A stretch of DNA of 26,513 bases from IMG/VR virus record IMGVR_UViG_3300013104_000733, positions 1 through 26,513 of that record, one strand, 5' to 3'. The stretch is from a virus. The notes below the pieces were generated by a model. It did no database searches, had not been told where the DNA came from, and saw only the letters and a list, made by a program, of their open reading frames with translations. Both the position numbers and the translations under genes were made by a program. Numbering within the stretch: the first letter of the stretch is position 1; each line of letters opens with the position of its first letter. Positions 10 through 22,564 of the stretch are shown here, piece by piece.

Positions 10-1854
10 ATGGAGCAAAACCCGCAGTCACAGCTCAAGCTTCTTGTCACCCGTGGTAAGGAGCAAGGCTATCTGACCTATGCTGAGGTCAATGACCATC
101 TGCCGGAAGATATCGTCGACTCCGATCAGATCGAAGACATCATCCAGATGATTAACGACATGGGCATCCAGGTGGTTGAAGAAGCCCCGGACGCCGACGA
201 TCTGATGCTGAATGAAAACAGCTCCGATACTGACGAAGATGCCGCGGAAGCTGCCGCTCAGGTATTATCCAGCGTTGAATCTGAAATTGGCCGCACCACT
301 GACCCGGTTCGCATGTACATGCGTGAAATGGGTACCGTTGAACTGCTGACCCGCGAAGGCGAAATCGACATCGCGAAGCGTATCGAAGACGGTATTAACC
401 AGGTTCAGTGTTCCGTTGCTGAATACCCGGAAGCCATTACCTACCTGCTGGATCAGTACGATCGCGTTGAAGCAGGCGAGTCGCGCCTGTCAGATTTAAT
501 CACTGGCTTTGTTGATCCTAACGCTGAAGAAGACCTGGCACCGACCGCCACTCATGTGGGTTCTGAGCTGTCTGAAGCCGATCGTAATGACGACGAAGAT
601 GACGACGAAGAGAGCGATGACGACAGCTCTGACGACGATAACTCTATCGATCCAGAACTGGCGCGCGAGAAGTTCTCTGACCTGCGCACGCAGTACGAAA
701 CCACGCGTGACGTGATCAAAAGCAAAGGACGCAGCCATGCTGCCTCGGTTGCCGAGATCCAGAACCTGTCTGACGTCTTTAAGCAGTTCCGCCTGGTACC
801 GAAGCAGTTCGACTACCTCGTGAACAACATGCGTGAAATGATGGAGCGTGTCCGTACTCAGGAACGTTTGATCATGAAGCTGTGTATTGAAGTGTGCAAA
901 ATGCCGAAGAAAAACTTCATTACGCTGTTCACCGGTAACGAGACTAACGAGAGCTGGTTCAAAGCCGCACTGGCCATGAACAAGCCGTGGTCTGAAAAAC
1001 TGCTGGACGTGCAGGATGACGTGATGCGTTCTCTGCAGAAACTGGCCCAGATTGAAGAAGAAACCGGCCTGACCATCGAGCAGGTGAAAGACATCAACCG
1101 TCGTATGTCGATCGGTGAAGCGAAAGCCCGCCGCGCGAAGAAAGAGATGGTTGAAGCTAACCTGCGTCTGGTCATTTCCATCGCGAAGAAATACACCAAC
1201 CGTGGTCTGCAGTTCCTGGATCTGATTCAGGAAGGTAACATCGGCCTGATGAAAGCGGTTGATAAGTTCGAATACCGTCGCGGCTATAAGTTCTCAACTT
1301 ATGCCACATGGTGGATTCGTCAGGCGATTACCCGTTCTATCGCTGACCAAGCGCGTACCATCCGTATTCCGGTGCATATGATTGAGACCATCAACAAACT
1401 CAACCGTATCTCGCGCCAGATGCTGCAGGAGATGGGACGCGAGCCGACGCCAGAAGAACTGGCTGAGCGCATGTTGATGCCTGAAGATAAGATCCGTAAG
1501 GTGCTGAAGATTGCCAAAGAGCCTATCTCTATGGAGACGCCGATTGGTGATGATGAAGATTCACATCTGGGTGATTTTATCGAAGACACCACGCTGGAGC
1601 TGCCGCTGGACTCTGCCACCTCTGAGAGCCTGCGTTCTGCCACCCACGACGTGCTGGCTGGCCTGACCGCCCGTGAAGCCAAAGTGCTGCGCATGCGTTT
1701 CGGCATCGATATGAACACCGACCACACGTTAGAAGAAGTGGGCAAACAGTTTGACGTTACTCGTGAGCGTATCCGTCAGATTGAAGCGAAAGCCCTGCGT
1801 AAACTGCGCCATCCGAGCCGCTCGGAAGTGCTGCGTAGCTTCCTCGACGACTAA
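10..1854 (+). CDS. rpoD: RNA polymerase primary sigma factor RpoD (sigma-70)
   Basis: This is the housekeeping sigma factor, which directs core RNA polymerase to -35/-10 promoters. The 614 residues match the usual enterobacterial length (E. coli 613). Region 1.1 is at the N-terminus. Region 1.2 begins near [12 protein letters not shown] (about residue 97). A very acidic stretch of Asp/Glu/Ser lies at about 190-212 in the non-conserved region. Region 2 contains the conserved block [20 protein letters not shown] and the [10 protein letters not shown] segment that melts and reads the -10 element. Region 4 ends with the helix-turn-helix [20 protein letters not shown]. Start: ATG at 10; upstream sequence is outside the window. 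It differs from E. coli mainly in the acidic region and the segment after it, which points to a more distant enterobacterium. Identification is certain. Confidence 0.99.
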
Positions 1855-6993: not shown

Positions 6994-7215
6994 TTACAGC
7001 AGCTGCGGTGAGGGGTTATTGCTGCCTTTTGCCATCATCGGCACCGTATTGATCTGCGCCGGTTCGACGATAATCCCGGACACGCTCTCCAGGGTTTTAA
7101 AGGTACAACTGCAGTTAATGTTCTGGCACTGGTGATAACGTTCTTTCGTCTCTTTCGAAACGTAGCGACTGCTTTTCGTATGGGCGGCGGTCTGACATTT
7201 TGGGCAATGCATCAT
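6994..7215 (-). CDS. ogr: Ogr/Delta-type late transcription activator
   Basis: Zinc-finger activator that recruits host RNA polymerase to P2-type late promoters. The 73 residues (P2 Ogr 72) show the family pattern: CPKC near the N-terminus and CQNINC later, giving Cys-X2-Cys-X22-Cys-X4-Cys. The core KERYHQCQNINCS is nearly identical to P2 Ogr KERYHQCQNVNCS. Start: ATG at 7215 behind GAGAGGAG (ATG at 7212 is equally possible); the open frame seven codons upstream has no family match. It is the last gene of the late block. Two TTAG-N7-CTAA dyads lie just upstream, suggesting direct control by the cI repressor, as in 186, where CI represses the B (ogr-like) promoter. Confidence 0.95.
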   Translation of the reverse strand: MMHCPKCQTAAHTKSSRYVSKETKERYHQCQNINCSCTFKTLESVSGIIVEPAQINTVPMMAKGSNNPSPQLL

Positions 7216-7245
7216 GGTGGTTCTCCTCTCTGGCATACAACAACA

Positions 7246-7292
7246 TTAGCCAAAGACTAAACAAAAAGCAACTTAAATTAGACTTAATCTAA
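7246..7292. promoter_or_regulatory. Two repressor-like dyads upstream of ogr
   Basis: TTAGCCAAAGACTAA (7246-7260) and TTAGACTTAATCTAA (7278-7292) both fit TTAG-N7-CTAA, with centres 32 bp apart (about three helical turns). The second differs at only one central base from the dyad at 25902-25916 in front of cI. It also overlaps the stop codon of D. The placement fits an ogr promoter controlled by the prophage repressor. Confidence 0.65.
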
Positions 7293-8446
7293 CCAGCCTG
7301 TTTTTCCACTAAGACGTAATCCACGTTTTCAACCATCAGCTCCAGGTTCAACAAGGTGGTAAATCCACTTTTATCGATGGTATGCACGATATTGGTAATC
7401 AGCCATTTTTGATTATCGATGACCGATTTAAAGCCCTGGGCTTTGACCGGCGTTTCAGGAATCAGCTTTGCAGCGCCCAGTGCCAGTAGGATCTTCAACG
7501 TAGCCCGGTTACGTTGCAGATCCTGCCACTTCGCTTTAGCCGCCTCCTCTGCTTCCTCCTGGCTACTGAAGTGCGTATTCAGTACATACAGCTTCTTATT
7601 GCTGCCAAAAACATAGGTTTTTCCCGGGTCTTGTTGCCCGATTGTGGGGATATTTTTGGCCGCCGGATGGACAGGGTTCACCGCCGGTGTTGCTGGCGGT
7701 ATCGTGTTGACGGTTATCCCTTTCTGCTGCGCCTTTTTCTGATCGTACCATTTTGCTTCAACGCCACTGTAATCGTCGCGCTTAAACAATTTGTACTCAT
7801 ACTTATCGCCATCCTGTCGGTTCAGATTCAGAAGTGGAATCGGCTGTCCGCTCACGGTCACGCCCTTCCCGGGGGCAAAGAACAGCAGCGTCTTATCTTT
7901 TATTGCCGCCACCGCGCCAACCAGCATTGCCAGCCGGGTAATGAACGTGCCGTCCGTTTCCTGTGTCTGATCGATATGCTTAATCTTTTTTCTGGCTATC
8001 TCCGGCCGCACGTCGGAGGTAAGTCCGTTACGTTTCGCGATTTTGTCCACAACCTCGCCAACCGTCATGTCTGGATACGAATCAGTGATTTTAACATCGA
8101 GCGAACCGCTAAAATCGGCGCTTCGGGCGACAACCGTTATCGTGTCCGGCGCGCCCTGGTAGGTGACCTGATCAATGATGTAGGAGCCTTTATCTGCAAG
8201 CGGCTGCCCCTTCCAGCCTATCTCTAAGACTATTTTCGCGCCAAAGGGCGGCATGACCAACTGGCCGTCACTGTCGTCGAGCACCAGGTCCAGCTGATCG
8301 ACCTCCAGGCCGCGGTTGTCCGTTAACTTCAGAGAAATCAGCCGTGGGCGAATATCTTCCGTTTTATCTTTCGTCTCAATTTTGATAGTAAAGTCCGGCG
8401 TAGGCGCGACGCGCAGGGGCACTGGAATCGGGACGATATCGCTCAT
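7289..8446 (-). CDS. D: Tail protein D (baseplate hub, late control D family)
   Basis: Homologue of P2 gpD, the hub component that links the tail tube to the spike gpV. The 385 residues compare with 387 in P2. Recognisable parts are the N-terminal PTPDFTIKIETKDKTEDIRP, the hub domain with VVARSADFSGSLD and TFITRLAMLVGA, and a C-terminal LysM-like region (about 290-340) followed by VDNQKWLITNIVHTID. Start: ATG at 8446, with GGAGG eight bases upstream, directly after the U stop codon; an ATG at 8461 lies inside U. It is followed by ogr in the same transcript. Confidence 0.93.
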   Translation of the reverse strand: MSDIVPIPVPLRVAPTPDFTIKIETKDKTEDIRPRLISLKLTDNRGLEVDQLDLVLDDSDGQLVMPPFGAKIVLEIGWKGQPLADKGSYIIDQVTYQGAPDTITVVARSADFSGSLDVKITDSYPDMTVGEVVDKIAKRNGLTSDVRPEIARKKIKHIDQTQETDGTFITRLAMLVGAVAAIKDKTLLFFAPGKGVTVSGQPIPLLNLNRQDGDKYEYKLFKRDDYSGVEAKWYDQKKAQQKGITVNTIPPATPAVNPVHPAAKNIPTIGQQDPGKTYVFGSNKKLYVLNTHFSSQEEAEEAAKAKWQDLQRNRATLKILLALGAAKLIPETPVKAQGFKSVIDNQKWLITNIVHTIDKSGFTTLLNLELMVENVDYVLVEKQAG

Positions 8447-12227: not shown

Positions 12228-13397
12228 TTAGCTGTTTACGGATGCGGCGAAGTTCGCCAGATAGGTATCGGTGATGCGCTGACGCAGGGTCAGATCTTCC
12301 AGCGGCGGCACCGGCGTGTAGTCGTAATCGATAAACAGTTTGCCCGCCTTCAGGCTCTCTTTATCGTTGGCGCTTTCGTCGTACCAGCAGTTGGCGCCCA
12401 GCAGATAACCGGCGCTGACCAGCTCACGGAACTTGGCATTGATACCGGCGATGATTTCGCGTACCAGTACTGGCGTCAGCGGTTTGTCGTTGGCCCACAT
12501 GTGCGCTTCCGCCATGGTATCGGCCAGAACCTGTGCTGAACGGGTGTAGTTTTCAAAGGCAAAAAGTGGATCGTCACTGCAGGTGCGGTTGCCCCAGAAA
12601 CGGAAACCGTCCTTGCGAATCAGCGTGGTAACACATTTTTCGTTCAGCAGATCGGCATCGGTGCCGGTCTGTTGCAGATCCCAGAAAACATCTGCAGAGA
12701 TACCCGTCACGCCATTGACGCCCACGTTAGACAGGGTTTTATGCCAGCCGGTGTCGTTGTCAATTTTGGCGCGCAGACCCAGCGCACGTGCGGTGGCATA
12801 AGCCATTTCAGATTTATTGGTTGCCGTGTTCCAGGCAATAAAATCTGGCCAGATCACCATCAGCTCGCGCTGGCTGAAGTTTTCGCGGTACTTCATGGCG
12901 TCAGAAATGGTTTTGCTGTTCCAGGCAGAGACGTAGGCAAAGCCACGCAGCTGCTGGGCAATGCTGGCCAGCGCTGTCGCCACTTCCAGCGAATCCAGAC
13001 CCGGCACGCCAAGAATGCGCGGTTTAACACCCAGCTGCGTTTGCGCGCTGAGCAGCGCCTTCATGCCGGTGTATTTACCGTTCGCATCCGTCGAGCCAAT
13101 CAGGTTAGAGGTGGTTTCAGCCTGGCTCGCGCCTTCTGCTACGCGAACCACGACGGTTACCGGCTTCGCCTGGTCAGCAATCGCCTGCAGCGCGGCTGCT
13201 AACGTGCCTTTGGTGCCGGCTTTACCGATAGCTGCCTGCACGTTGGTCAGCAGAACAGGTGTGTTAAGAGGAAATGCCGTTGCATCAGCATCTTCTGCGG
13301 TGCAGATCATGCCAACAATGGCGGTTGAAACTGTTGAAATGGTGCGTGTACCGTCATTGACTTCGACGACGCGGACACCGTGATGAAAATCAGACAT
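12228..13397 (-). CDS. FI: Contractile tail sheath protein FI
   Basis: Forms the outer sheath whose contraction drives the tube through the target envelope. The 389 residues compare with 396 in P2. Family features are the N-terminal [18 protein letters not shown], the central [12 protein letters not shown] and [14 protein letters not shown], and the C-terminal [27 protein letters not shown], the part that handshakes with neighbouring subunits. Start: ATG at 13397 with CGGAG nine bases upstream; a GTG three codons earlier is less likely. It heads the FI-FII-E-T-U-D-ogr block. Confidence 0.95.
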
Positions 13398-13477
13398 CTG
13401 TAGCACTCCGTGTTGTGGGTGTGCTCAGAGTGTCAGGTCAGTGAAAAGGATGCATGCGATTGCGGTTTGCTGATCGT

Positions 13478-14056
13478 TCAGTAAGAAGAACCGCGTAAAT
13501 GGTGCTGTTTTGGCGCTGGAATATAACGATAAATGGTTTTGGTTGAAACATCTAATACGAGTGCAACCTGATGAAGCGTGGCGCCATTCGCCATCATCCG
13601 TTCCGCTCTGGCAACGACTTCCGGTGTCATAATGCGCCGGCGGCCACCAATGCGTCCTTTCTCACGCGCAGCGGTCAGGCCGGCACGCGTTCGCTCGACA
13701 ATCAATTCGCGCTCCATCTCCGCCAGTGCGCCCATCACATGAAAGAAAAAACGGCCCATCGGTGTGCTGGTATCGATGCTGTCCGTGAGGCTACGAAAGT
13801 TTACCCCGCGTTCGCGCAGCTCCTCGGTGAGCATGACCAGGTGACGCATGCTGCGGCCCAGTCGATCGAGCTTCCATACCACCAAAGTATCGCCCTCTTT
13901 TAACGTCCGCAGCGCCCGCTTTAAACCAGGCCGCTCGCTGGTCTTGCCGCTGATTTTATCCTCAAAAATCTGTTCACAATTTGCGCTCTGCAGCGCATTC
14001 CGTTGCAAATCGGTGTTTTGGTCATTTGTTGACACCCTGACATAGCCAATCAGCAT
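13478..14056 (-). CDS. Serine DNA invertase (Gin/Cin/Pin type)
   Basis: Site-specific recombinase that inverts the adjacent fibre segment. The 192 residues (Gin 193) carry the catalytic serine at position 9 (IGYVRVSTNDQNTDLQ). The catalytic arginines lie in VWKLDRLGRSMRHL. The long dimerisation helix includes GRFFFHVMGALAEMERELI, and the Hin-type DNA-binding helix-turn-helix is GATLHQVALVLDVSTKTIYRY. Start: ATG at 14056 after GGAG. The gene sits about 65 bases from the first crossover site and reads away from it, the standard arrangement in Mu, P1 and invertible tailocins. Such enzymes need the host Fis protein bound at an enhancer, often inside the invertase gene; I did not identify that enhancer by eye. 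Confidence 0.95.
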   Translation of the reverse strand: MLIGYVRVSTNDQNTDLQRNALQSANCEQIFEDKISGKTSERPGLKRALRTLKEGDTLVVWKLDRLGRSMRHLVMLTEELRERGVNFRSLTDSIDTSTPMGRFFFHVMGALAEMERELIVERTRAGLTAAREKGRIGGRRRIMTPEVVARAERMMANGATLHQVALVLDVSTKTIYRYIPAPKQHHLRGSSY

Positions 14057-14121
14057 CGTTTTTTCTCCGGTAAAAGGTGAGGAGTTTGCCATTGTGCAGG
14101 TGAGGCGGGCCAGGGGTTTGT

Positions 14122-14147
14122 TTCATCAAAACCTCGGTTTGGGAGAG
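14122..14147 (+). other. Crossover site of the fibre switch (invertase-proximal)
   Basis: A 26-base site: arm TTCATCAAAACC, central TC (14134-14135), arm GGTTTGGGAGAG. Nineteen bases (AAAACCTCGGTTTGGGAGA) recur inverted at 16373-16391. The form resembles the known gix/cix sites (AAACC - two bases - GGTTT core with 12-base arms). The core dinucleotides of the two sites match in inverted orientation, as needed for inversion. Confidence 0.85.
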
Positions 14148-14870
14148 AAGTTTTCTGGCAGGCTTATTCGTACGATTGTTATGAGCACATCTGGCAATTA
14201 CACACCTGATCCGGAGGCAAAGAAAGTACGTTGCCAATTAGTCGGTGCGGGGGCTAGTGGAAGTAGTCCTGCAACAACAGATGCTGCTTCATATACTGCT
14301 GCTGGTGGGGGCGGTGGTGGCGGAGGGTTTGTGGAATTTGAAATTGATCTTATCGTTACAAAAATTACCAACTTACCCGTGACTATAGGATTGGGTGGTG
14401 CAAGTGTCACTGGTTCAGTAGGTATTATTGGAGGAACAACTTGGTTCGGAACCAAAATTTATGCATCGGGCGGAAGTTCAGGTTCTATTTCCACACGTCC
14501 ACAAGTTAATTACACAAATGCGGTTAATTCTCTTATGGTCATTCCAGGTGTTCCAGGGATTGGGGAATTCAAAGAAACAGAATTGGGTTATAAGCTTTTG
14601 CGTAAATCTAACGGTACTTATGGGGGCTGGGGGTACTTGGGAACACAAGGGCAACTTGGTGGATCAGGTGGTGCAAGTATGCTATCCGGAGAAGTATTCG
14701 CTGCGGGTAATGGAGGTTTTGGTAATAATGGGGCAGATGCAGGTTATGGCGCTGGAGGCAGTGGGACATGTAACTTGTATAATGATCCTTATCCTGAAGT
14801 GCTTACTTACTCTGCCAAACCATCAGGCGCAGGTGCCAATGGCGTTGCAATCTTTTATGAGTACTCATAA
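14136..14870 (+). CDS. Silent alternative C-terminal cassette of the tail fibre
   Basis: An open frame runs on the plus strand from the crossover site without a good start of its own (no ribosome-binding site upstream of the shared NLGLGE). After inversion the constant fibre N-terminus (about 202 residues) would be joined in frame here, because NLGLGE is encoded in the same phase at both sites. The cassette adds about 245 residues, predicting a fibre of roughly 447 residues. It is rich in glycine (a run of eight Gly, then TIGLGG, GGTTWFG, GGSGGAS, GGFGNNGADAGYGAGGSG) and ends GAGANGVAIFYEYS, the style of glycine-rich phage fibre-tip domains. Lower GC than the constant part suggests separate origin. 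In the present orientation it is not expressed as a fibre. Confidence 0.85.
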   Translation, partial: GLGEKFSGRLIRTIVMSTSGNYTPDPEAKKVRCQLVGAGASGSSPATTDAASYTAAGGGGGGGGFVEFEIDLIVTKITNLPVTIGLGGASVTGSVGIIGGTTWFGTKIYASGGSSGSISTRPQVNYTNAVNSLMVIPGVPGIGEFKETELGYKLLRKSNGTYGGWGYLGTQGQLGGSGGASMLSGEVFAAGNGGFGNNGADAGYGAGGSGTCNLYNDPYPEVLTYSAKPSGAGANGVAIFYEYS

Positions 14871-15082
14871 TGAATAAGCAATATGCAGTAATAAAAAATG
14901 GCGATTGTGTCGTTGAGAACACTATTGTAGCACCGGCTGATTATCAGATTGATGGTTTTTATTTAATAGAGTTGAGTGAAAATAATCATGCTCAGCCAGG
15001 TGCATTTTACAATTCTGAAAGCGGAAGGTTTTATGGTGATAGCGATTATATGACAGACTATAAAAAATTCACAATAGGATAA
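14870..15082 (+). CDS. Small gene paired with the silent fibre tip
   Basis: 70 residues (MNKQYAVIKNGDCVVENTIV...), with ATG overlapping the cassette stop codon (TAATG), so it is translationally coupled to the silent tip. It begins with a short beta-rich motif (YAVIKNGDCVVENTIVAPADY) like other small phage proteins next to fibre genes. It probably replaces the Tfa chaperone for the glycine-rich tip after inversion. AT-rich like the cassette. No family is recognised with certainty. Confidence 0.65.
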   Translation: MNKQYAVIKNGDCVVENTIVAPADYQIDGFYLIELSENNHAQPGAFYNSESGRFYGDSDYMTDYKKFTIG

Positions 15083-15212
15083 GGTTATTTTTAGTGGTGA
15101 CTATTTTAAGCGGCATTTCGATAGGGATAAGATAAGTTATAGAGTTGTTCTAAATTTATTTATTTAAATTCTAGCACTTTGCTCTTTGTAAAACTGCCTG
15201 AAAAATTAGGCT

Positions 15213-15242
15213 AAAGGTAGCGTTTATCGCTACCTTTTTTTT
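15213..15242. terminator. Bidirectional terminator inside the invertible segment
   Basis: AAAGGTAGCG (15213-15222) pairs perfectly with CGCTACCTTT (15228-15237), with a T run on the plus strand and a shorter A run on the other side. It lies between the two convergent chaperone genes, so it ends the fibre transcript in either orientation of the segment. Confidence 0.88.
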
Positions 15243-15268
15243 CACAAACGCTTAATTCTCAAACGCTA

Positions 15269-15862
15269 TTAAGGTTTTTTCGGCCAGCTAATCTCAGGGG
15301 CTGTCGAAACATCCACGACCTTGACAGCAGATTTATATGCCATCCATGCTGAAAGCTTTGCTTTATCAGTATCGCTAATATCTCCAAGCAATAATTCAAT
15401 TCGCCAGTCAGATATCATCATTTCAACTTCACTCAAAAGTTCTCGACGAAATTTTTCAGCACTTGCTATATCTGCTTCGTGTTGGGCCACCAGATCCAAA
15501 ATCCAGTTATCCCCGTCCCATTTATCATATTGTGAGTCTGGCTTTTTGGGCGTGGTACTTATTGGATAATCTCCCAAATTTTTTATAATAAATGGTTTTC
15601 CGTTTGTAATGTCATAAACGGTTTCACCCCGATGATCGCTAACATACTCCCAAGATAAAAGATCTTCAGCCCTGCAAACCGCCATTCCATCCTTATTTTT
15701 TAAAGGCGCATCGATACATGAATTGGCAGGAATGCCAACACCTAAAGCCAGACTTTCAATGCCGGATGAAAGGTATTCACGTGAGATCTCATCGAAATTA
15801 TAAACTCTGACGTCCCCAGCCTTAACGGCTATAAAGTTTTTATCTAATTCAGCCTGATTCAT
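15269..15862 (-). CDS. G: Tail fibre assembly chaperone (Tfa family), active orientation
   Basis: 197 residues of the Tfa/P2 gpG type, which fold and may cap the fibre tip. The conserved C-terminal part includes SQYDKWDGDNWILDLVAQHE and ISDWRIELLLGDISDTDKAKLSAWMAYKSAVKVVD, ending APEISWPKKP, which is the usual Tfa signature. ATG at 15862 overlaps the end of the fibre gene. The gene lies entirely inside the invertible segment, so it is switched together with its cognate fibre C-terminus. Confidence 0.92.
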   Translation of the reverse strand: MNQAELDKNFIAVKAGDVRVYNFDEISREYLSSGIESLALGVGIPANSCIDAPLKNKDGMAVCRAEDLLSWEYVSDHRGETVYDITNGKPFIIKNLGDYPISTTPKKPDSQYDKWDGDNWILDLVAQHEADIASAEKFRRELLSEVEMMISDWRIELLLGDISDTDKAKLSAWMAYKSAVKVVDVSTAPEISWPKKP

Positions 15863-16992
15863 TATGCAGCCCTTACAATGTAATTAAATGCGATATTCCT
15901 AGGGCGCATGGTTATCCATACAGAACCCTCTTTACTGTAAACTATATTACTAGCGCCTCCACTAACGCCATTATCCTGAGCAAGACTGTTTGTAAGATCT
16001 GAATTATTGGGTGCCCGATAAATACCGCCTGGCGATGCTACTGACTTAGTTACAAAGTCGGCCCCAGAATAGGCCATACCGATATAAACACCACTACTGT
16101 CAACATCACTACCGTTATAATCCATCATGCCTGTACGAAGATAAGTCGGAATCTGGGCTGCTAATAACTCACGGTCAGAATCGACTCCCCGCCCATCATC
16201 CCATCCACGAATAAACTCCCCACGTAAATCCGGTAATTTTAGTGATGGATAGGCCTTTGCCAGAAGCGGGTACTGAGCAGAGGTGATAGCTGCACCATTA
16301 CATTTTAACCAACCAGTTGGCGGGTTCGCAGATGGCCACGGAACCGGCACCCCCACCGGTAAAGCGGAGCCTTCTCCCAAACCGAGGTTTTTAAGAACCT
16401 CCGCCACCAGCCCCGCGTCTTTAATTTCTGCCAGCGCTTTAGCCGTTTGCAGATACTGGCTATGGGGATTGGCCGCATCGATATGCTTCTTCATCACGTC
16501 GTCGGTGTAGGCTTTCACCTCGATGACTTTGTCATCCACATACTGGCGCGTGGCGAGCACAACTGAAGGGTCAATTTTCAACGTGACGGCACTGGTGCTG
16601 TTCACGATCAGGATCATGCGCACGGTCTGAGTACGACCGCTGCCCTCCTGCAGTTGCGGCTTGTAGGTTTCCGCGCAGTTCGCGACGGCAATCAGCACGC
16701 CGTCGGCGTCATACAGGCCAATCTCACGGATCCAGAAGCCGCCTTCGCCTTCAGGGATAATCTGTTCAGCGATAATCTGGCTGCTGTTCGCGGCATCCAC
16801 CTTCAGCGAATTCAGCGCGGCACGGCGCTTTTCGCCCACCAGTTTGGTCTGCGCAGGATCGGGCGTAGGCAAAACACCGCCGCCGTCACCCACCGCCATC
16901 TGGGTAATCTGCAGTTGGGTTCCCAGGGCCGCGGCATTGGCCAGCTTTGCCGCGCCCTGATTGGTCAGTAGGGCAAAATATTTCGTTGTCAT
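15862..16992 (-). CDS. H: Tail fibre H, expressed version
   Basis: Receptor-binding fibre, 376 residues, much shorter than P2 gpH (669). Residues 1-150 form the baseplate-attaching tail-collar domain of the DUF3751 type (KYFALLTNQGAAKLANAAAL, GGFWIREIGLYDADG). Residues about 165-200 form a helical linker, and NLGLGE (about 200-205) is the crossover point. The variable C-terminus has a collar domain (PTGWLKCNGAAITSAQYPLL, LPDLRGEFIRGWDDGRGVDS) and ends MRPRNIAFNYIVRAA. The ATG overlaps the stop of I (ATGA). Only the C-terminal 174 residues lie inside the invertible segment, so inversion leaves the attachment part constant and changes the binding tip. Confidence 0.93.
   Translation of the reverse strand: MTTKYFALLTNQGAAKLANAAALGTQLQITQMAVGDGGGVLPTPDPAQTKLVGEKRRAALNSLKVDAANSSQIIAEQIIPEGEGGFWIREIGLYDADGVLIAVANCAETYKPQLQEGSGRTQTVRMILIVNSTSAVTLKIDPSVVLATRQYVDDKVIEVKAYTDDVMKKHIDAANPHSQYLQTAKALAEIKDAGLVAEVLKNLGLGEGSALPVGVPVPWPSANPPTGWLKCNGAAITSAQYPLLAKAYPSLKLPDLRGEFIRGWDDGRGVDSDRELLAAQIPTYLRTGMMDYNGSDVDSSGVYIGMAYSGADFVTKSVASPGGIYRAPNNSDLTNSLAQDNGVSGGASNIVYSKEGSVWITMRPRNIAFNYIVRAA
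16372..16397 (+). other. Crossover site of the fibre switch (within H)
   Basis: The arm TTCTCCCAAACC, central GA and arm GGTTTTTAAGAA form a near-palindromic 26-base site inside the H coding sequence. Its inner 19 bases are the reverse complement of 14128-14146. Recombination between the two would invert about 2.25 kb (14135-16384). Confidence 0.87.
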
Positions 16993-17597
16993 GCTCTCAC
17001 TTCCGTCAGGTCAATAAGATGGACCGCTGCGCCGGTGTAACCGGAACCGCCTGCGGTGATAACTTCAGGTGTATAGGGGTAAACAGTAAGCTCATCGCCA
17101 CTGTAACTGGCGGCCGCAACAGGAACGGTGCCGGTGCTGTCCAGGTTGATGGATAACCCAGTCAGGTGGCGACTCACCGGCTTGGCATCGGCAATCAGCC
17201 GCTCCAGCTCGTTGTACATCGCTTCGGTAATACCGGTTTCCAGTACGCCGACATCAAGGCGAAAGGTGCCGGGCGCTTCATTGGTTTGCCACCATTCCTT
17301 AATGCGAATCAGGTAGCCCAGTGGCTCCACCACACGACGCAGCGACCCAATCGTCCCTTTGTGTTTATGGATATATTCCGATGCAGCAACCACGCTGCGT
17401 TTCGTGCTTTCGCTCCAGCCCGAATCCCAACGATCCACCGACCAGGCCCAGGCCAGGTAAGGCAGTAGCTCCACCGGACAGGTCTGCGAATTCCATAACT
17501 GGCGCAAAGGAACAGGAATGGATTCCAGCGCTGCGCAGGCTTCAGCCGCGGCAACTTCCAGGGCTGATGAACCCGTTGGCAGCAGGCGTTTACTCAT
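16989..17597 (-). CDS. I: Baseplate protein I
   Basis: Homologue of P2 gpI (tail formation, baseplate wedge). The 202 residues contain the family block LPYLAWAWSVDRWDSGWSES followed by KRSVVAASEYIHKHKGTIGS and VEPLGYLIRIKEWW, and then RLIADAKPVSRHLTGLSI. It overlaps J by eight bases and H by four, so J-I-H are coupled. P2 gpI is 176 residues; the extra length is a C-terminal tail with SYSGDELTVYPYTPEVI. Confidence 0.93.
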   Translation of the reverse strand: MSKRLLPTGSSALEVAAAEACAALESIPVPLRQLWNSQTCPVELLPYLAWAWSVDRWDSGWSESTKRSVVAASEYIHKHKGTIGSLRRVVEPLGYLIRIKEWWQTNEAPGTFRLDVGVLETGITEAMYNELERLIADAKPVSRHLTGLSINLDSTGTVPVAAASYSGDELTVYPYTPEVITAGGSGYTGAAVHLIDLTEVRA

Positions 17598-18498
17598 CGG
17601 AACCTCCTACCGTGATCTGGTAGCCGGTGCAGAACGCCGCCTGGGTTTTATCCAGCACCACATCGGCCACCGGCTGGGCCAGTTCGACGCGCTGTACACC
17701 TTCTACATGTAGCGCGGCATACAGCGCAGACTTGCGAATATCGCGGCCTAAACGTGCCTGGGTGTTTACAAATGCCTTGAGCTTCGCCTCGGATGCGGCA
17801 CGGATGGGCTCCGCCTCGGGACCGGGATACAAATACAGCGTGGCGTCAACGCGGTAATCCACAATCTGAGCCGACTGGACGGTAACCCGGTCAGCAACCG
17901 GACGGACATCTTCGTCATTTAGCGCGGAATTCACGATCGCCAGCAGGTCGCTGCCCGCCGCACCGTTGCCTTCGCGGGACAGCACGGTAATCGTGACGCT
18001 GGCGGGAGAGGGACTGATAGCCGAAGCATCGGCTACGCGGCCATCGGCGCTACGAGCATGAAATTCGTAAGCACCGGACGGCCCCGCAACACTCAGCCCT
18101 TCAAACGCGGCGGCAATGCGGGCACGGAAGTCTTCATCCCGCTCCATTACCGCCTCAACGGGCGGCGTAGCGGTATTATCCGCCGGCGTCAGCACCAGCC
18201 GCGTCACGCCGTTGTTGGCGCCCAGTTGATCCAGATCGCTGCCGTTGGCCCAGGCCACCATCACCGCCTTGGCCGCCTCGTTGATGCGCTGACGCAGAAT
18301 GACTTCCCGGTAGGCGTTCTCCTGCAGGAGTTTCACCAGCGGGTCGGACTCCAGCGCCAGAACCCGGGCAACCGATGCCTGCTCGTCTGCAGGATAGAGC
18401 GAAATCAAGGTGGCTTTGCGTTCGGCAAGCAGCGTTTCATAGTCCAGCGTTTCCACCACGTTTGGCGCAGGCAGCTGGCTCAGATCGATAGTAGGCAT
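17590..18498 (-). CDS. J: Baseplate protein J
   Basis: Baseplate wedge protein at the edge of the baseplate, required to close the hub-wedge complex. The 302 residues (P2 302) have the N-terminal TIDLSQLPAPNVVETLDYET and the core LLQENAYREVILRQRINEAA. ANGSDLDQLGANNGVTRLV and GPSGAYEFHARSADGRVADA follow, all typical of the gpJ family. It starts three bases after W. Confidence 0.95.
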   Translation of the reverse strand: MPTIDLSQLPAPNVVETLDYETLLAERKATLISLYPADEQASVARVLALESDPLVKLLQENAYREVILRQRINEAAKAVMVAWANGSDLDQLGANNGVTRLVLTPADNTATPPVEAVMERDEDFRARIAAAFEGLSVAGPSGAYEFHARSADGRVADASAISPSPASVTITVLSREGNGAAGSDLLAIVNSALNDEDVRPVADRVTVQSAQIVDYRVDATLYLYPGPEAEPIRAASEAKLKAFVNTQARLGRDIRKSALYAALHVEGVQRVELAQPVADVVLDKTQAAFCTGYQITVGGSDE

Positions 18499-18501
18499 GA
18501 T

Positions 18502-18852
18502 TCAACTCACAGGGACGGTTAACGAAAAATCCTGCGCGGTGTCCGCACGGTTGCCGGTGATTTCCACCACCATCCCGCCGTCAAACGCAGATTCAAAATT
18601 AATGGCAGTCAGGCTGATGCGCGGCTCCCACTGCAGGATCGCCATATAACAGGCCGACATGATTTGCAGGCGCAACCGGTCGTTCTGCGGCTGGTCGATT
18701 AGCGCCGACAACAGTGACCCGTAGTTACGGCGCATCACCCGCGATCCCAGCGGCGTCGTCAGAATGTCACGGACGGACTGGCGGATATGCTCCAACTCAA
18801 CGAGGGTTACGCCTGTTTCGCGGCTCATGCCGGTGTAGCGTGCTGTTGTCAT
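18502..18852 (-). CDS. W: Baseplate protein W (gp25-like)
   Basis: 116 residues (P2 115) homologous to T4 gp25, which nucleates sheath assembly on the baseplate. Conserved parts are TLVELEHIRQSVRDILTTPL, GSRVMRRNYGSLLSALIDQP and WEPRISLTAINFE. The start ATG at 18852 overlaps the stop of V (ATGA). The frame is open further upstream, but that stretch is antisense to V and has no family match. Confidence 0.95.
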   Translation of the reverse strand: MTTARYTGMSRETGVTLVELEHIRQSVRDILTTPLGSRVMRRNYGSLLSALIDQPQNDRLRLQIMSACYMAILQWEPRISLTAINFESAFDGGMVVEITGNRADTAQDFSLTVPVS

Positions 18853-19433
18853 AATGGTGCTCCTGTGGTGCCACCGCTGTCGCCCGGATGCTGGTGCGTA
18901 TGCAGCACTTTGCCGTTGGAGGCGAAGCTGCCGCCGCTGTGCGACACATCGCCCTTCATGGTGCCACCCTGGGTCACTTCCAGCGTGGCGGTTTTCAGTA
19001 ACGTGGTGCACTCCACCTCTGGCGTATCCAGCAGGATTTTGACAGCCGCCTTGATCGTCGCCGTCTGAATCCCTTCGGCTTTCAGCGCGCCGGTTGCAGG
19101 CTCGTATTCAATGACCGCGCCATCGGGAAAAGAGTAGTGCAGCGCATCGGCAGAGGCCGAGGGCGCCGGGCTGGCGTCAGAGAACACGCCGGGTAACACG
19201 AAGCCGCTGTTCAGCTCACCGCCCAGGCTTAAGATCAGCACCTGCTCGCCTGGCGACGGCGCATTCCATGAACGGGTTCTTCCCGCCCGGGCACTTAGCC
19301 AGTGCAGCCAGTCAGTGGTGTTATCGCCGGTTTTTACCCGGCAGGTTCCCGCCTCCAGATTGATGGCGGCAACGGTGCCAATGCGGACCATGTTGCGCAG
19401 CAAGCGCTTGATTTCTAATATTTGCTCGTTCAT
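18849..19433 (-). CDS. V: Baseplate spike protein V
   Basis: Central spike that punctures the target membrane. The 194 residues (P2 211) begin with an OB-fold domain (RIGTVAAINLEAGTCRVKTG, SPGEQVLILSLGGELNSG), then a beta-helix spike. The end HTHQHPGDSGGTTGAPL carries the paired histidines that bind iron in the P2 spike tip. It heads the V-W-J-I-H-G block. A late promoter would be expected upstream, in a gap of only 92 bases, but I could not identify one. Confidence 0.95.
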   Translation of the reverse strand: MNEQILEIKRLLRNMVRIGTVAAINLEAGTCRVKTGDNTTDWLHWLSARAGRTRSWNAPSPGEQVLILSLGGELNSGFVLPGVFSDASPAPSASADALHYSFPDGAVIEYEPATGALKAEGIQTATIKAAVKILLDTPEVECTTLLKTATLEVTQGGTMKGDVSHSGGSFASNGKVLHTHQHPGDSGGTTGAPL

Positions 19434-19519
19434 GGCATTAGTTTCTCGTTGCAGGAGAAAAGCGGCAATCGAATGCCGTTTACCCAGGGATGGCTAAACA
19501 GCGCGTCAGCGGATAAGGG
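19430..19519 (-). other. 29-codon open frame coupled to V, where gene S should be
   Basis: Between R and V a frame opens right after a TAA (19520-19522) and runs 29 codons (SADALFSHPWVNGIRLPLFS...) to a TGA overlapping the V start. It has no start codon of a usual type. The ATGA junction is what a real upstream gene would show. It may be the end of a deleted gene or chance. P2 gene S (tail completion, about 150 residues) is not present in this 92-base gap. Confidence 0.25.
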
Positions 19520-19525
19520 TTATCG

Positions 19526-19993
19526 TTATGTTTTCCATTCGCTGACTAGCTTGCCTTTGATGTACAACTGCCAGGGGCGCTCAACATTTTCCGGCATAGC
19601 CGGTTCTGGCAGATGCGTGATGTGTAATGCGCCGTTCTGCTGCTCAACCCAGACGCGTTCGGTCAGTTGCAGAGTGATATTCACCTTACTGCGCCCATCG
19701 CCGGTTGCCTCAAGGGTGAAGGTAAAGCCGGTGCGACGTTTCTCATCCGAAACCATGATGTCGGGCTGGTTTTCCCGAAGCCATGTCAGCAGGGGAACCA
19801 TGATCAGATCGATATCCTCTGCGAAGTCAGTAATCGTGACGGCCAGCTGGAAGTGGTATTCAAACGACAGCGAGCTGGCCAGCGTGGAAACCAGGTTTCC
19901 GGACTGAATCGCTATCGTCAGGTTGTCAGGATTTTGCTGAAGCAGCGGAACGCTGTTTATCAGCACCTGGCGTAGTTGGTTCGCTTTCAACAT
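19526..19993 (-). CDS. R: Tail completion protein R
   Basis: 155 residues, exactly the length of P2 gpR. Matches include LASSLSFEYHFQLAVTITDF, VPLLTWLRENQPDIMVSDEK and the C-terminal RPWQLYIKGKLVSEW (P2 RPMELYINGELVSKW). Two consecutive ATG codons (19996, 19993) follow AGGAG; the second agrees with P2. The protein acts at the head-proximal end of the tail. R is kept while its usual partner S is missing, which fits a tail that no longer joins a head. Confidence 0.93.
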   Translation of the reverse strand: MLKANQLRQVLINSVPLLQQNPDNLTIAIQSGNLVSTLASSLSFEYHFQLAVTITDFAEDIDLIMVPLLTWLRENQPDIMVSDEKRRTGFTFTLEATGDGRSKVNITLQLTERVWVEQQNGALHITHLPEPAMPENVERPWQLYIKGKLVSEWKT

Positions 19994-20246
19994 CATGCTG
20001 CTCCTGGCACGCTTTAATCATCTCAATCTGCAACCCGCACGATGCGAGCGCAGCCTCTAACTGGCGGTTATCCGCCGCCAAATCACCCTGCGTCTGCAGG
20101 TTGTTTTCCGGAATGGGGCAACTTGTCACGCGTGGACAACCAGTCCAGATAATCTCGGGCATTGCTGAAGGCCGGACGGCTGTGCAGCCGGATAACGTCA
20201 GCAGGCAAAGCAGCAGCGCTCCAGGCACGTAAAGCGGGATTGGCAT
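19926..20246 (-). CDS. lysC: LysC / Rz1-like outer-membrane spanin lipoprotein
   Basis: 106 residues starting at ATG 20246 behind GAAGAG. The N-terminus has a lipoprotein signal PLYVPGALLLCLLTLSGC with the lipobox LSGC, so the mature protein is anchored in the outer membrane and exposed to the periplasm. It starts inside lysB in another frame, the embedded arrangement of Rz/Rz1 pairs. It overlaps the start of R by about 70 bases. Together with LysB it would fuse the inner and outer membranes at the last step of lysis. It is somewhat long for Rz1 and ends in a polar tail. Confidence 0.88.
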   Translation of the reverse strand: MPIPLYVPGALLLCLLTLSGCTAVRPSAMPEIIWTGCPRVTSCPIPENNLQTQGDLAADNRQLEAALASCGLQIEMIKACQEQHDVESEPTTPGADKQRSAASAKS

Positions 20247-20517
20247 CGGTTTCTCTTCTGATAATGGTTTCACGATGGAGCGCCTGCGCGCTGGCCTGGT
20301 TCTGAAGCAGCCGCAGCGCCGCCTCACGTTTTCGGCTAGCCTGGATATCCGCATCGAGTTGGGCCAGCGCCTTGTCCCGGCTGCTGACGTCAGCCGCCAG
20401 CGTACTCACCCTGCGCTGTGCCTCATCCCGTTGATGAGTCATCACGCTAAGGCGCCAGCCGGTTAAGCCCAGGGCAATAAGCAAAATGGCGATCGCCAGT
20501 GCAACCAGTCGCATCAT
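20083..20517 (-). CDS. lysB: LysB / Rz-like inner-membrane spanin
   Basis: About 144 residues from the ATG at 20517 (a second ATG at 20514), preceded by AAAAGGAG. One N-terminal transmembrane helix (LVALAIAILLIALGLTGWRL) is followed by a periplasmic coiled coil (residues about 30-95, HQRDEAQRRVSTLAADVSSR) and a proline-containing end. This is the membrane-spanning partner of LysC. The start overlaps the endolysin stop codon. Confidence 0.9.
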   Translation of the reverse strand: MMRLVALAIAILLIALGLTGWRLSVMTHQRDEAQRRVSTLAADVSSRDKALAQLDADIQASRKREAALRLLQNQASAQALHRETIIRRETDANPALRAWSAAALPADVIRLHSRPAFSNARDYLDWLSTRDKLPHSGKQPADAG

Positions 20518-21023
20518 GCCGCTCCTTTTAAACACCACGCCATTTCGCGCTGGCGACGGTTATCCAGGCCCGGGTTGTAGGTGCCTTTGACATATACCCA
20601 GCGCTTAAGCTGCAGGCAGGCATCGTGCCAGCGGCCGCTGTTGATCAATCCCGCCAGCGTTGAGTGACAGGCGGCGTGCACGCCAACGTTAAAACCGAAT
20701 GACACCACCGCGTCATAAACCTGGTACGGCATTTCACGTGGCATGCACTGGTCGATCCCGCGTTCAACGCGCATCACGTCGTAAACCAGGTTTACTGCGG
20801 CCTGGCGCTCGTTCACCACGCTGGTCGGGGTAACACCTTGCGTGTGACCAATGCCGTTGGTCCAGACGCCGGCGCTGCACTGATAGGGCGAGGTGCGGCA
20901 GCCTTCTGCATCGGCAATCAGCTTCAGGCCGGCTTCAGAGGTTTTCAGCATGTTGATTTGCGGTAGCAACGCGGCCAGGGCCAGTACGGCCGCCACGGCG
21001 CAACGTTTAGCGGTCTGGCTCAA
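20514..21023 (-). CDS. SAR-type GH24 endolysin
   Basis: Cuts peptidoglycan glycosidic bonds to release the particles. Starting at TTG 21023 (AGGGG upstream, overlapping the holin gene) it has 169 residues. A weakly hydrophobic N-terminal segment (CAVAAVLALAALLPQI) is typical of a signal-arrest-release anchor, allowing Sec export without a holin pore. The catalytic Glu is in ADAEGC, followed by Cys eight residues later (PYQCSAG) and Thr in GIGHT, giving Glu-8-Cys-5-Thr where T4 lysozyme has Glu-8-Asp-5-Thr. This is not the P2 gpK type, so the lysis module has been exchanged relative to P2. Confidence 0.9.
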   Translation of the reverse strand: MSQTAKRCAVAAVLALAALLPQINMLKTSEAGLKLIADAEGCRTSPYQCSAGVWTNGIGHTQGVTPTSVVNERQAAVNLVYDVMRVERGIDQCMPREMPYQVYDAVVSFGFNVGVHAACHSTLAGLINSGRWHDACLQLKRWVYVKGTYNPGLDNRRQREMAWCLKGAA

Positions 21024-21231
21024 AGTTAAGCCCCTGTAAGTTGCGCTGCTGTAGCTCGTAAGTTTTGCGACGGTAGTGCCAGTTGATAAAAAACGTCGCA
21101 ACGTTGGTGCACATGGTCAAAACGGCGACGCCAGAGCCAACCATAAAGGCGATATCCTGCGGTGTGTGACGTCCAAACCACATCAGGACGATCCCGATGA
21201 GGTAATTAATCAGAGAACTGATTTTTTCCAT
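21007..21231 (-). CDS. Phage holin (two-helix type)
   Basis: 74 residues with start ATG at 21231, five bases after X. Two hydrophobic helices, ISSLINYLIGIVLMWFG and IAFMVGSGVAVLTMCTNVATFFI, are followed by a basic cytoplasmic tail WHYRRKTYELQQ. It occupies the place of P2 gene Y. Working with the SAR endolysin it would act as a pinholin or holin that depolarises the membrane and sets lysis time. The frame overlaps the endolysin start. Confidence 0.87.
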   Translation of the reverse strand: MEKISSLINYLIGIVLMWFGRHTPQDIAFMVGSGVAVLTMCTNVATFFINWHYRRKTYELQQRNLQGLNFEPDR

Positions 21232-21236
21232 TGGCG

Positions 21237-21440
21237 CTAATCCCACAGATTGAGGGTTTCACCCGTGGCCGCCTGAGGCAGCTCCGGTAACACCACTCTG
21301 CATCCGTGCGGTAATGTTGGGCCTTGTTCTGCCAGGCCAGGATTGGCGGCATAAACCTGTTCAACCGCCTGCTGCGTGCGTCCGTAGTAACGCCAGCAGA
21401 TCTCATCAACGGTTTCTTCCTGTTGTGCGTAAATCAGCAT
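21237..21440 (-). CDS. X: Tail protein X
   Basis: 67 residues, the same as P2 gpX, with a LysM-like fold: ETVDEICWRYYGRTQQAVEQ, VYAANPGLAEQGPTLPHG, then ETLNLWD at the end. It is needed for tail assembly. Start: ATG 21440 after AAGGGG. This is the first gene of the tail and lysis block; in P2 the gene before it is the head-completion gene L, which is absent here. Confidence 0.95.
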   Translation of the reverse strand: MLIYAQQEETVDEICWRYYGRTQQAVEQVYAANPGLAEQGPTLPHGCRVVLPELPQAATGETLNLWD

Positions 21441-22130
21441 TGATTGGCCCCTTATGAGCGTAAAAGCCATGGTCGAGTAGGCGATAAGTTGAGAACATCC
21501 GCTGTCGTGGTGACAGGCAATAAAGGCCCCGTTGGCCAACAGAAACCTGTTCAGAGAATTGCACCGTCGGGCCACCAAACCGCCCTGAAGCCGAATCCGG
21601 ATAACCCGGATACGCGATGTGCATTGGCCTTCGCGCAGAGCGATCCAGAGATTGCTGTGCCTGCCGCTTGTCAGAAGTAGTGTGTGCCTCAGCAGGCGCT
21701 TGCTCAACGCAAGGCCGTCCGCTCAAGGCTGGGCGGGCAGAGGGTTACACCCTGGATGCGGGCGCCGATGGAAGGGTCGCGAAAGCGCTGGGATGACGTG
21801 AGCGTATTTGCTTTCACAGCGACGACCGGGAGAGGTCGTAAGCCAGCAACAGGAAAGGGGCAGTAACCAAAAGATTGCCGCGAACGCTGACAGGAAAGCG
21901 GCCGGGATAACGTTATTCAGTAAAGGTGGGGGAAGACTACGCCTGGCGAACAGGGGTTGCTGCAAACGCCTGCAGGCAGCAGATGCCCGGCGTTTTCGGT
22001 CGGTCATGACGCAATGTCAGCGATAAAACGTACTGGCGCGGTTTTGCTGTTGCCCGCGCCTGAACCCTCTCATCCGTTAAGATGGCTCAGGCAACGGACA
22101 ACCGTCCTGATGTCACAGTGAACGCGTCGC
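21441..22130. other. 690-base stretch without a convincing gene (site of the missing head genes)
   Basis: Open frames exist on both strands but they overlap each other in GC-rich DNA, lack good ribosome-binding sites and match no phage gene I know. In P2 this interval would hold cos and Q, P, O, N, M, L (about 6 kb). I found no portal, terminase, scaffold, capsid or completion motif and no sequence resembling the P2 cos end. The promoter for X and the lysis genes must lie here; I could not identify an Ogr dyad with confidence. Confidence 0.7.
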
Positions 22131-22132
22131 CA

Positions 22133-22327
22133 TCATGATTTTTTTAAAGGCGTCGCCGCAAAGACAACAGAAAAGTGGTTATCGGAAAGGGTGTAGTTCG
22201 CAGCGATTTCAGCGATCAAATTTAACGCGATTTCCCTGTCACGCTCCCGGCAGGCTCCTTCACTGGTAAGCCTGGCGATAAGTTCGACGCGTTCAAGCAT
22301 GACTCGCTCATGTAATTCATTTCCCAC
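22133..22327 (-). CDS. Small SOS-controlled gene in the position of tum (DinI-like?)
   Basis: 64 residues if started at the GTG at 22327, which has GGGGGAGG six bases upstream. The open frame reaches an ATG at 22357, but that lies inside the LexA box and is not plausible. The protein (ERVELIARLTSEGACRERDR..LIAEIAANY, DNHFSVVFAA) roughly follows the pattern of DinI-like proteins (short strand, two helices, SVxxAA strand), which is only a weak match. In 186 and Fels-2 the LexA-controlled antirepressor gene tum lies at this place beside gene A. A role in induction or tuning of SOS is inferred from position and LexA box, not from sequence. Confidence 0.6.
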   Translation of the reverse strand: MGNELHERVMLERVELIARLTSEGACRERDREIALNLIAEIAANYTLSDNHFSVVFAATPLKKS

Positions 22328-22347
22328 AATTCCCTCCCCCAAATAAA

Positions 22348-22367
22348 TACTGTACATACATACAGTA
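22348..22367. promoter_or_regulatory. LexA (SOS) box
   Basis: TACTGTACATACATACAGTA is a near-perfect 20-base palindrome differing at only two positions from the E. coli consensus TACTGTATATATATACAGTA. It ends about 20 bases before the GTG start at 22327, overlapping the expected promoter. A box this strong means tight repression and full release only after substantial DNA damage. Confidence 0.95.
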
Positions 22368-22564
22368 GCATAGCATTCATTAACTGTGGAAGCGTTTTAA
22401 GATAGTTCGTAAAAAATTATATCATGTTGATAGGCATCAACTTTTGTTGTACTGCCTGCCAGACAGGTGAAGGCACACTTACGCCAGAAGCGTAAGAAAA
22501 ATCAATAGATTTTCTTCATTTACCCATCCAAAACAGCAGGTTTTCACTCCGCCTTTTCGTCACG
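22368..22564. other. Intergenic region between gene A and the SOS gene
   Basis: No gene seen. It contains an inverted repeat GTTGAT-AGGC-ATCAAC at 22426-22441 and two adjoining hairpins: CTTACGC/GCGTAAG at 22478-22496 and an AT-rich AGAAAAATC/GATTTTCT at 22495-22515. The hairpins lie 50-90 bases after the stop of gene A and may terminate its transcript. The first repeat may be a regulatory site for the SOS gene. Confidence 0.45.

Follow-up and report, generated by a model that had tools for sequence, protein, structure and literature searches.

A fibre switch with two unlike tips in a predicted headless tailocin of P2 type

Why does a tail-fibre locus keep a second, silent tip of another fold beside the one it expresses, and is such a locus a working switch? 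The question is raised by a stretch of DNA of 26,513 nucleotides, positions 1 to 26,513 of the IMG/VR virus record IMGVR_UViG_3300013104_000733, which was analysed at its full length and is called the window below. Between positions 13,478 and 16,992 the window carries a DNA invertase gene, two crossover sites and two fibre-tip cassettes. We read this region as a switch of the tail fibre in a headless tailocin of P2 type, by which a Gin-type invertase would swap a collar-type tip for a glycine-rich tip in frame, and we assign this reading a probability of roughly 0.92.

An invertible segment inside the fibre gene

The switch region consists of the following features.

13478-14092, minus strand: Gin-type serine DNA invertase (PF00239 and PF02796; PHROG 125, DNA invertase)
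13972-14034: candidate enhancer of recombination, lying within the 5' portion of the invertase gene and made up of two Fis-like sites (13972-13986 and 14020-14034)
14122-14147, plus strand: left crossover site, core TC
14130-14870, plus strand: silent glycine-rich fibre tip, 246 codons from the site (NLGLGEKFSG...; PF21722, phrog_863)
14870-15082, plus strand: 70-residue partner of the glycine-rich tip (phrog_18617, function not annotated), a recurrent neighbour of glycine-rich tips
15269-15862, minus strand: Tfa, the tail fibre assembly chaperone of the collar tip (PF02413)
15862-16389, minus strand: expressed collar-type fibre tip (PF07484), a relative of the T4 gp37 tip (E 5e-13)
16372-16397, minus strand: right crossover site, within the fibre gene; its core reads GA on the plus strand
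16390-16992, minus strand: constant N-terminal fibre part (PF12571), kept in all relatives

The two 26-base sites are inverted to each other and alike at 23 of 26 bases, with a contiguous run of 19 identical bases (AAAACCTCGGTTTGGGAGA). Each site is an imperfect palindrome with a non-palindromic core dinucleotide (TC/GA), and the inverted-repeat match (14122-14146 with 16373-16397) is 92%. The 19-base stretch occurs twice in the window and has no third copy there at up to three mismatches; in shuffled sequence its expectation was 0.00, even with three mismatches. Between the sites lies an invertible segment of 2.25 kb. The NLGLGE codons share their phase at both sites, and an in silico flip between the core dinucleotides gave a single open fibre of 447 residues, compared with 376 at present, so that the fibre reading frame stays open in both orientations. 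The first-pass annotation, made from the sequence alone, had described two inverted sites with 19 shared bases and a common core dinucleotide, two convergent cassettes between them and an uninterrupted fibre of about 447 residues after inversion, and all of this was confirmed.

The invertase has resolvase and HTH_7 domains, aligns over its full length with solved DNA invertases (phmmer E 2e-82 for 4m6f) and keeps the RVSTNDQ motif. The serine invertase that had been annotated is present and is of Gin type; its start is probably not at 14092, as alignment to the solved enzymes makes Met13 (14056; 192 residues) the most likely one. The two Fis-like sites are spaced by exactly 48 bases and reach a crude consensus score of 18.8, above the 95th percentile of shuffles at that spacing (17.7). 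This is weak evidence, and the switch may make use of Fis and an enhancer.

According to the model, the invertase would recombine the two inverted sites and thereby flip the intervening 2.25 kb. As the locus now stands, the constant N-terminal part is fused to the collar-type tip, followed by the Tfa chaperone; the whole fibre gene (15862-16992), Tfa and the invertase are on the same, minus strand. In the other state the same N-terminal part would be fused in frame to the glycine-rich adhesin tip and followed by the 70-residue partner. As the fibre would alternate between two states, a population would release tailocins of two binding specificities.

Two tips of different fold and their partners

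The cassettes have the contents assigned at first pass, a collar-type tip with Tfa on the expressed side (PF07484, PF02413) and a glycine-rich tip with a 70-residue gene on the silent side. The collar tip is akin to short tail fibres as well as to the T4 gp37 tip. An AlphaFold model of the glycine-rich tip (mean predicted local distance difference test score, pLDDT, 71; distal loops poorly modelled) matched the Pam3 fibre gp24 (7ypx_A) with a Foldseek E of 3.7e-6 and a Z of 19.6, at a root-mean-square deviation (rmsd) of 4.0 over 190 residues. The fibre gp24 of Pam3 is similar to S16 gp38, and the domains with which it recognises its receptor are TNF-like and glycine-rich (PMC9608196). The TNF-like sheets and stacked glycine-rich loops that mark the Pam3/S16 type are found in the silent tip from PF21722 and the model together. 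A profile search of PDB sequences with the glycine-rich tips was marginal, the Pam3 fibre appearing at E 0.04 among unrelated G-protein chains, and the predicted likeness is convincing only from the fold comparison. The model also resembled the glycine-rich domains of ALK (Z 8-10), which was taken as a shared fold and nothing more. Since the collar tip belongs to PF07484 and resembles T4 gp37, and the glycine-rich tip resembles Pam3 gp24, the two tips fall into different fold classes and have separate partners, as had been claimed.

The 70-residue protein has no match to a Pfam family. A protein with a glycine-rich end is directly followed by a homologue of 65-73 residues in two related loci (L006 and L013), in Klebsiella phage P18-100 and in a Wanchaivirus, and a 72-residue partner behind the glycine-rich tip of locus L018 was likened to it by eye (...VENIII...QPGMFLNKADGLFYQDK). 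Other glycine-rich tips of related loci have a partner of 58-63 or of 129-136 residues. The longer kind is the shorter one with the C-terminal helical part of Tfa added, and the two families are related at 99.4% in profile comparison. The same comparison of the 70-residue family with the 60- and 130-residue partners did not show homology (25% and 1.4% probability). The profile of the 70-residue family matches surface-anchored proteins (E 9e-5) over half its length.

The structure closest to a low-confidence model of the 70-residue protein was the N domain of gp25, the Pam3 chaperone (7ypx_a), although the likeness is weak (Z 2.6 with an rmsd of 2.8 over 45 residues; Foldseek probability 0.25). 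Because this domain binds the glycine-rich tip in Pam3 (PMC9608196), the 70-residue protein is probably a minimal chaperone, as far as the model can be trusted. It could instead form part of the tip's structure or act as a subunit that binds the receptor, in the way that T-even gp38 caps gp37. This would agree with the position of its gene, always directly behind the tip gene, and with the lack of a Tfa helical domain: neither Pfam nor Tfa profile comparison found the Caudo_TAP C-terminal helical domain in the protein, which is also too short for it. However, the homologous place behind other glycine-rich tips is held by proteins that combine the N domain with the Tfa helix, and the closest structural match, though weak, is itself a chaperone. 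We consider a structural or receptor-binding role rather unlikely.

Switching in sister loci

Relatives were taken as viral contigs with this fibre N-terminal part and a related invertase, 55 distinct loci in all. Two or more tips are found in 48 of these and three tips in four. Pairwise comparison of nearly identical loci revealed natural inversions with breakpoints in the crossover sites. Loci L022 and L104 align directly in the flank (98.8%) and inverted over 2253 bases (98.4%), L019 and L106 are inverted over 2553 bases (99.4%), and L022 and L018 are inverted between the sites. The sister loci showing inversions carry invertases that are 99-100% identical. The pairing of a glycine-rich with a collar tip was itself found in both states, with the glycine-rich tip on in L048 and L077 and the collar tip on in L053 and L056 (opposite states in L048 against L053 and L056, and in L077 against L053). 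The collar-Tfa cassette of the window's lineage is expressed in L020, and it is silent and inverted in L021 (98.65%). Locus L018, whose fibre N-terminal part is 99% identical to that of the window, expresses a glycine-rich tip with the 72-residue partner. A capsid-bearing phage (L013) has a fixed glycine-rich fibre of 447 residues with the partner adjacent and no invertase beside it. Both orientations occur in nature, in sister loci, and together with the anatomy of the locus these inversions support the invertible fibre switch that had been proposed.

The genes of the switch are well conserved. The ratio of nonsynonymous to synonymous substitution rates (dN/dS) between the window and L005, in both of which the glycine-rich cassette is silent, is 0.12 for the glycine-rich tip, 0.15 for the collar tip and 0.02 for the invertase, which ranges from 0.02 to 0.05 overall. 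Judging from these values, the silent tip is under purifying selection, and a frame kept this well must be expressed at times. A disabling mutation in the silent cassette, which the first-pass annotation had named as a sign against switching, was looked for, and no such mutation, stop or frameshift was found.

Several points weigh against a switch that works in the window as described. The inversion of this very copy is inferred from sister loci, the support for the Fis sites is a crude consensus and weak, and profile comparison of the 70-residue partner with Tfa families gave nothing significant, its structural match being weak. The exact glycine-rich tip is silent in every carrier (the window, L004/L020, L005/L029 and L006). 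This last point, and the single orientation seen in each record, would also fit a frozen relic in which the invertase or the sites are dead and the glycine-rich cassette is a decaying remnant. However, decay does not agree with the low dN/dS of the invertase and of the silent tip, with open frames throughout, with 19 identical bases kept at both sites, or with inverted sister loci that have nearly identical invertases, and we regard a relic as very improbable.

Tips differ widely among close relatives and tip sets are reshuffled, as they would be if homologous recombination exchanged fibre loci horizontally and so produced the diversity, with inversion minor and the invertase a passenger. Such exchange has been shown for carotovoricin, where about half of the loci are without an invertase (PMC13195805). 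However, several locus pairs differ solely by a precise inversion between the crossover sites, and exchange as the main source of diversity appears improbable, if slightly less so than a relic. Exchange probably brings in tips and inversion picks among them, so that both act. Returning to the invertible switch, this copy presumably inverts today. A change in the type of receptor bound is plausible, on the sole ground that the two tips differ in fold.

Glycine-rich and other tips are combined in 23 of the 48 related multi-tip loci, 12 of these pairing glycine-rich with collar tips, as counted with tip classes assigned by simple sequence rules. The swap between classes, which had been singled out as the outstanding trait of the locus, is therefore real, but it is less unusual than supposed.

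Further arrangements were observed among the relatives. A third cassette, with a 115-codon tip and a 150-residue Tfa-like gene, lies between the invertase and the glycine-rich cassette of L005 (4146-4960; same contig as L029), and three tips in a shufflon-like array are also present in L017, L021 and L026. The expressed glycine-rich fibre and 72-residue partner of L018 (6001-8227) stand behind a diverged site (KNLGFVEAV); the opposite strand there holds the remnant of another glycine-rich cassette, and the locus has two more silent tips. In L014 (5974-6387) a silent glycine-rich tip is shortened and joined to lysis genes, with fibre and baseplate genes missing, through either deletion or an assembly error. 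At the place of the relatives' invertase, L013 has on the opposite strand a gene for a 213-residue membrane-protein-like product, possibly cargo (6998-7639). L028 (8588, minus strand), L160, L161 and L162 have tips of yet another class (about 258-260 residues, TGVVGTSRNA...), some of them with an open reading frame of 61-62 residues directly downstream. No match came from searching the DNA of named phages with the switch region. Searches of genome contigs with the 70-residue protein and the glycine-rich tip found no relative, a result of little weight, as relatives exist elsewhere.

A headless carrier and its known counterparts

The genes around the switch point to a tailocin as its carrier.

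10-1854, plus strand: host rpoD, the flank that defines the pantailocin island
12228-13406, minus strand: tail sheath gene of P2 FI type (PF04984), adjoining the switch
16989-21707, minus strand: tail genes I, J, W, V and R, lysis genes and X
21708-22564: the place of the capsid, portal and terminase genes in P2; here X is followed directly by replication gene A

The order in the window is rpoD, mug, an integrase piece, the P2 genes D, U, T, E', FII and FI, the switch, and then I, J, W, V, R, the lysis genes, X, replication gene A and cI. Genes for a contractile tail, a baseplate, the fibre and lysis are all present. P2 capsid and portal genes (PF05125, PF04860) were found neither in the window nor in the eight closest headless records, and no head gene lies between X and gpA in the window, although no separate search was aimed at terminase. 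A complete phage as the carrier was dropped after these head-gene searches, in favour of a headless, tailocin-type element. The sheath gene was found in 22 of 22 records searched. Six close records in which a capsid is present have two sheath genes, which would fit a complete prophage lying next to the tailocin.

A locus of Pantoea ananatis JT1-188 is 98.3% identical over the aligned 67% of the query (96-98% including rpoD). Its order is rpoD, mug, tail genes, recombinase, fibre, lysis genes, X and replication endonuclease, with no head genes. The pantailocin island of Pantoea was reportedly described by Stice et al. 2023. Two sources that cite this work define the island by its rpoD and sulP flanks (PMC12873547) and place a DNA invertase in the Pantoea locus, with recombination postulated to alter the killing spectrum (PMC13280938). 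Pantoea, the rpoD flank, headless P2-type tail genes and an invertase in the locus are features in which the window resembles the island as these accounts give it (PMC12873547, PMC13280938); the sulP flank would fall beyond the window end. Given the rpoD flank, the lack of head genes, the identity to JT1-188 and the invertase in the Pantoea locus, the window is very probably the pantailocin island of P. ananatis or a close relative, the host being taken from similarity to a named Pantoea record.

Two observations concern the element as a whole. A gene for a metallo-beta-lactamase-fold protein (PF00753; 3939-5045), possibly cargo or defence, separates the integrase piece from the tail genes. 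Pantoea sp. JZ2 has a related element, also headless, that is entered as a circular plasmid of 29.6 kb (pJZ2-04; L176, 1-29602). Several of its frames are interrupted (those for fibre, tape measure and gpD), and it may be an excised island or an assembly artefact.

The switch itself is of a known kind, and the cross-class swap, though real, is recurrent among relatives. In Mu and P1 the alternative halves are related to each other; in the window, by contrast, the alternative tips differ in fold, and their carrier has no head. The Mu G segment (Gin) and the P1 C segment (Cin) share with it the invertase family, inverted sites within the fibre gene and a constant N-terminal part fused to alternative C-terminal parts, each with its own assembly genes (PMC12529663). 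Carotovoricin Er of Pectobacterium is likewise a tailocin, and inversion of its fibre by the ein invertase alters the killing spectrum (PMC12090994, PMC13195805); it differs in host genus, and we found no collar/glycine-rich swap described for it. P2-like prophages of E. coli also have an invertase and inverted repeats at the fibre C end, and one of them has three repeats and three alternative fibre ends; these loci come from enteropathogenic strains, and the source does not analyse fold classes of the tips (PMC4272514). Pam3 makes a glycine-rich tip of the same fold with an adjacent chaperone, gp25 (PMC9608196). However, gp25 has 162 residues and a helical trimerisation domain, which the 70-residue partner is without, and Pam3 has no inversion. 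In the fibre-inversion literature, compared without the primary pantailocin description, no description was found of an exchange between a collar tip and a Pam3-type glycine-rich tip with matched partners.

It is possible, though we propose it only tentatively, that P2-type tailocins and prophages swap folds as a general strategy, with one fibre base joined by inversion to a collar tip or to a Pam3-type glycine-rich tip, tips travelling with matched partners and the chaperone of some glycine-rich tips reduced to its client-binding domain. If so, one genotype could bind two chemically different receptors. Were the tips to bind receptors of different kinds, a single surface change would give a target strain no easy escape, and one producer clone would hedge between two killing spectra. 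That an intact switch is kept under selection where the head genes are lost shows it to be useful to a bacteriocin as well as in the infection of cells by phages. Tip classes recur with particular partner classes, which offers a natural series on the minimum size of a fibre chaperone.

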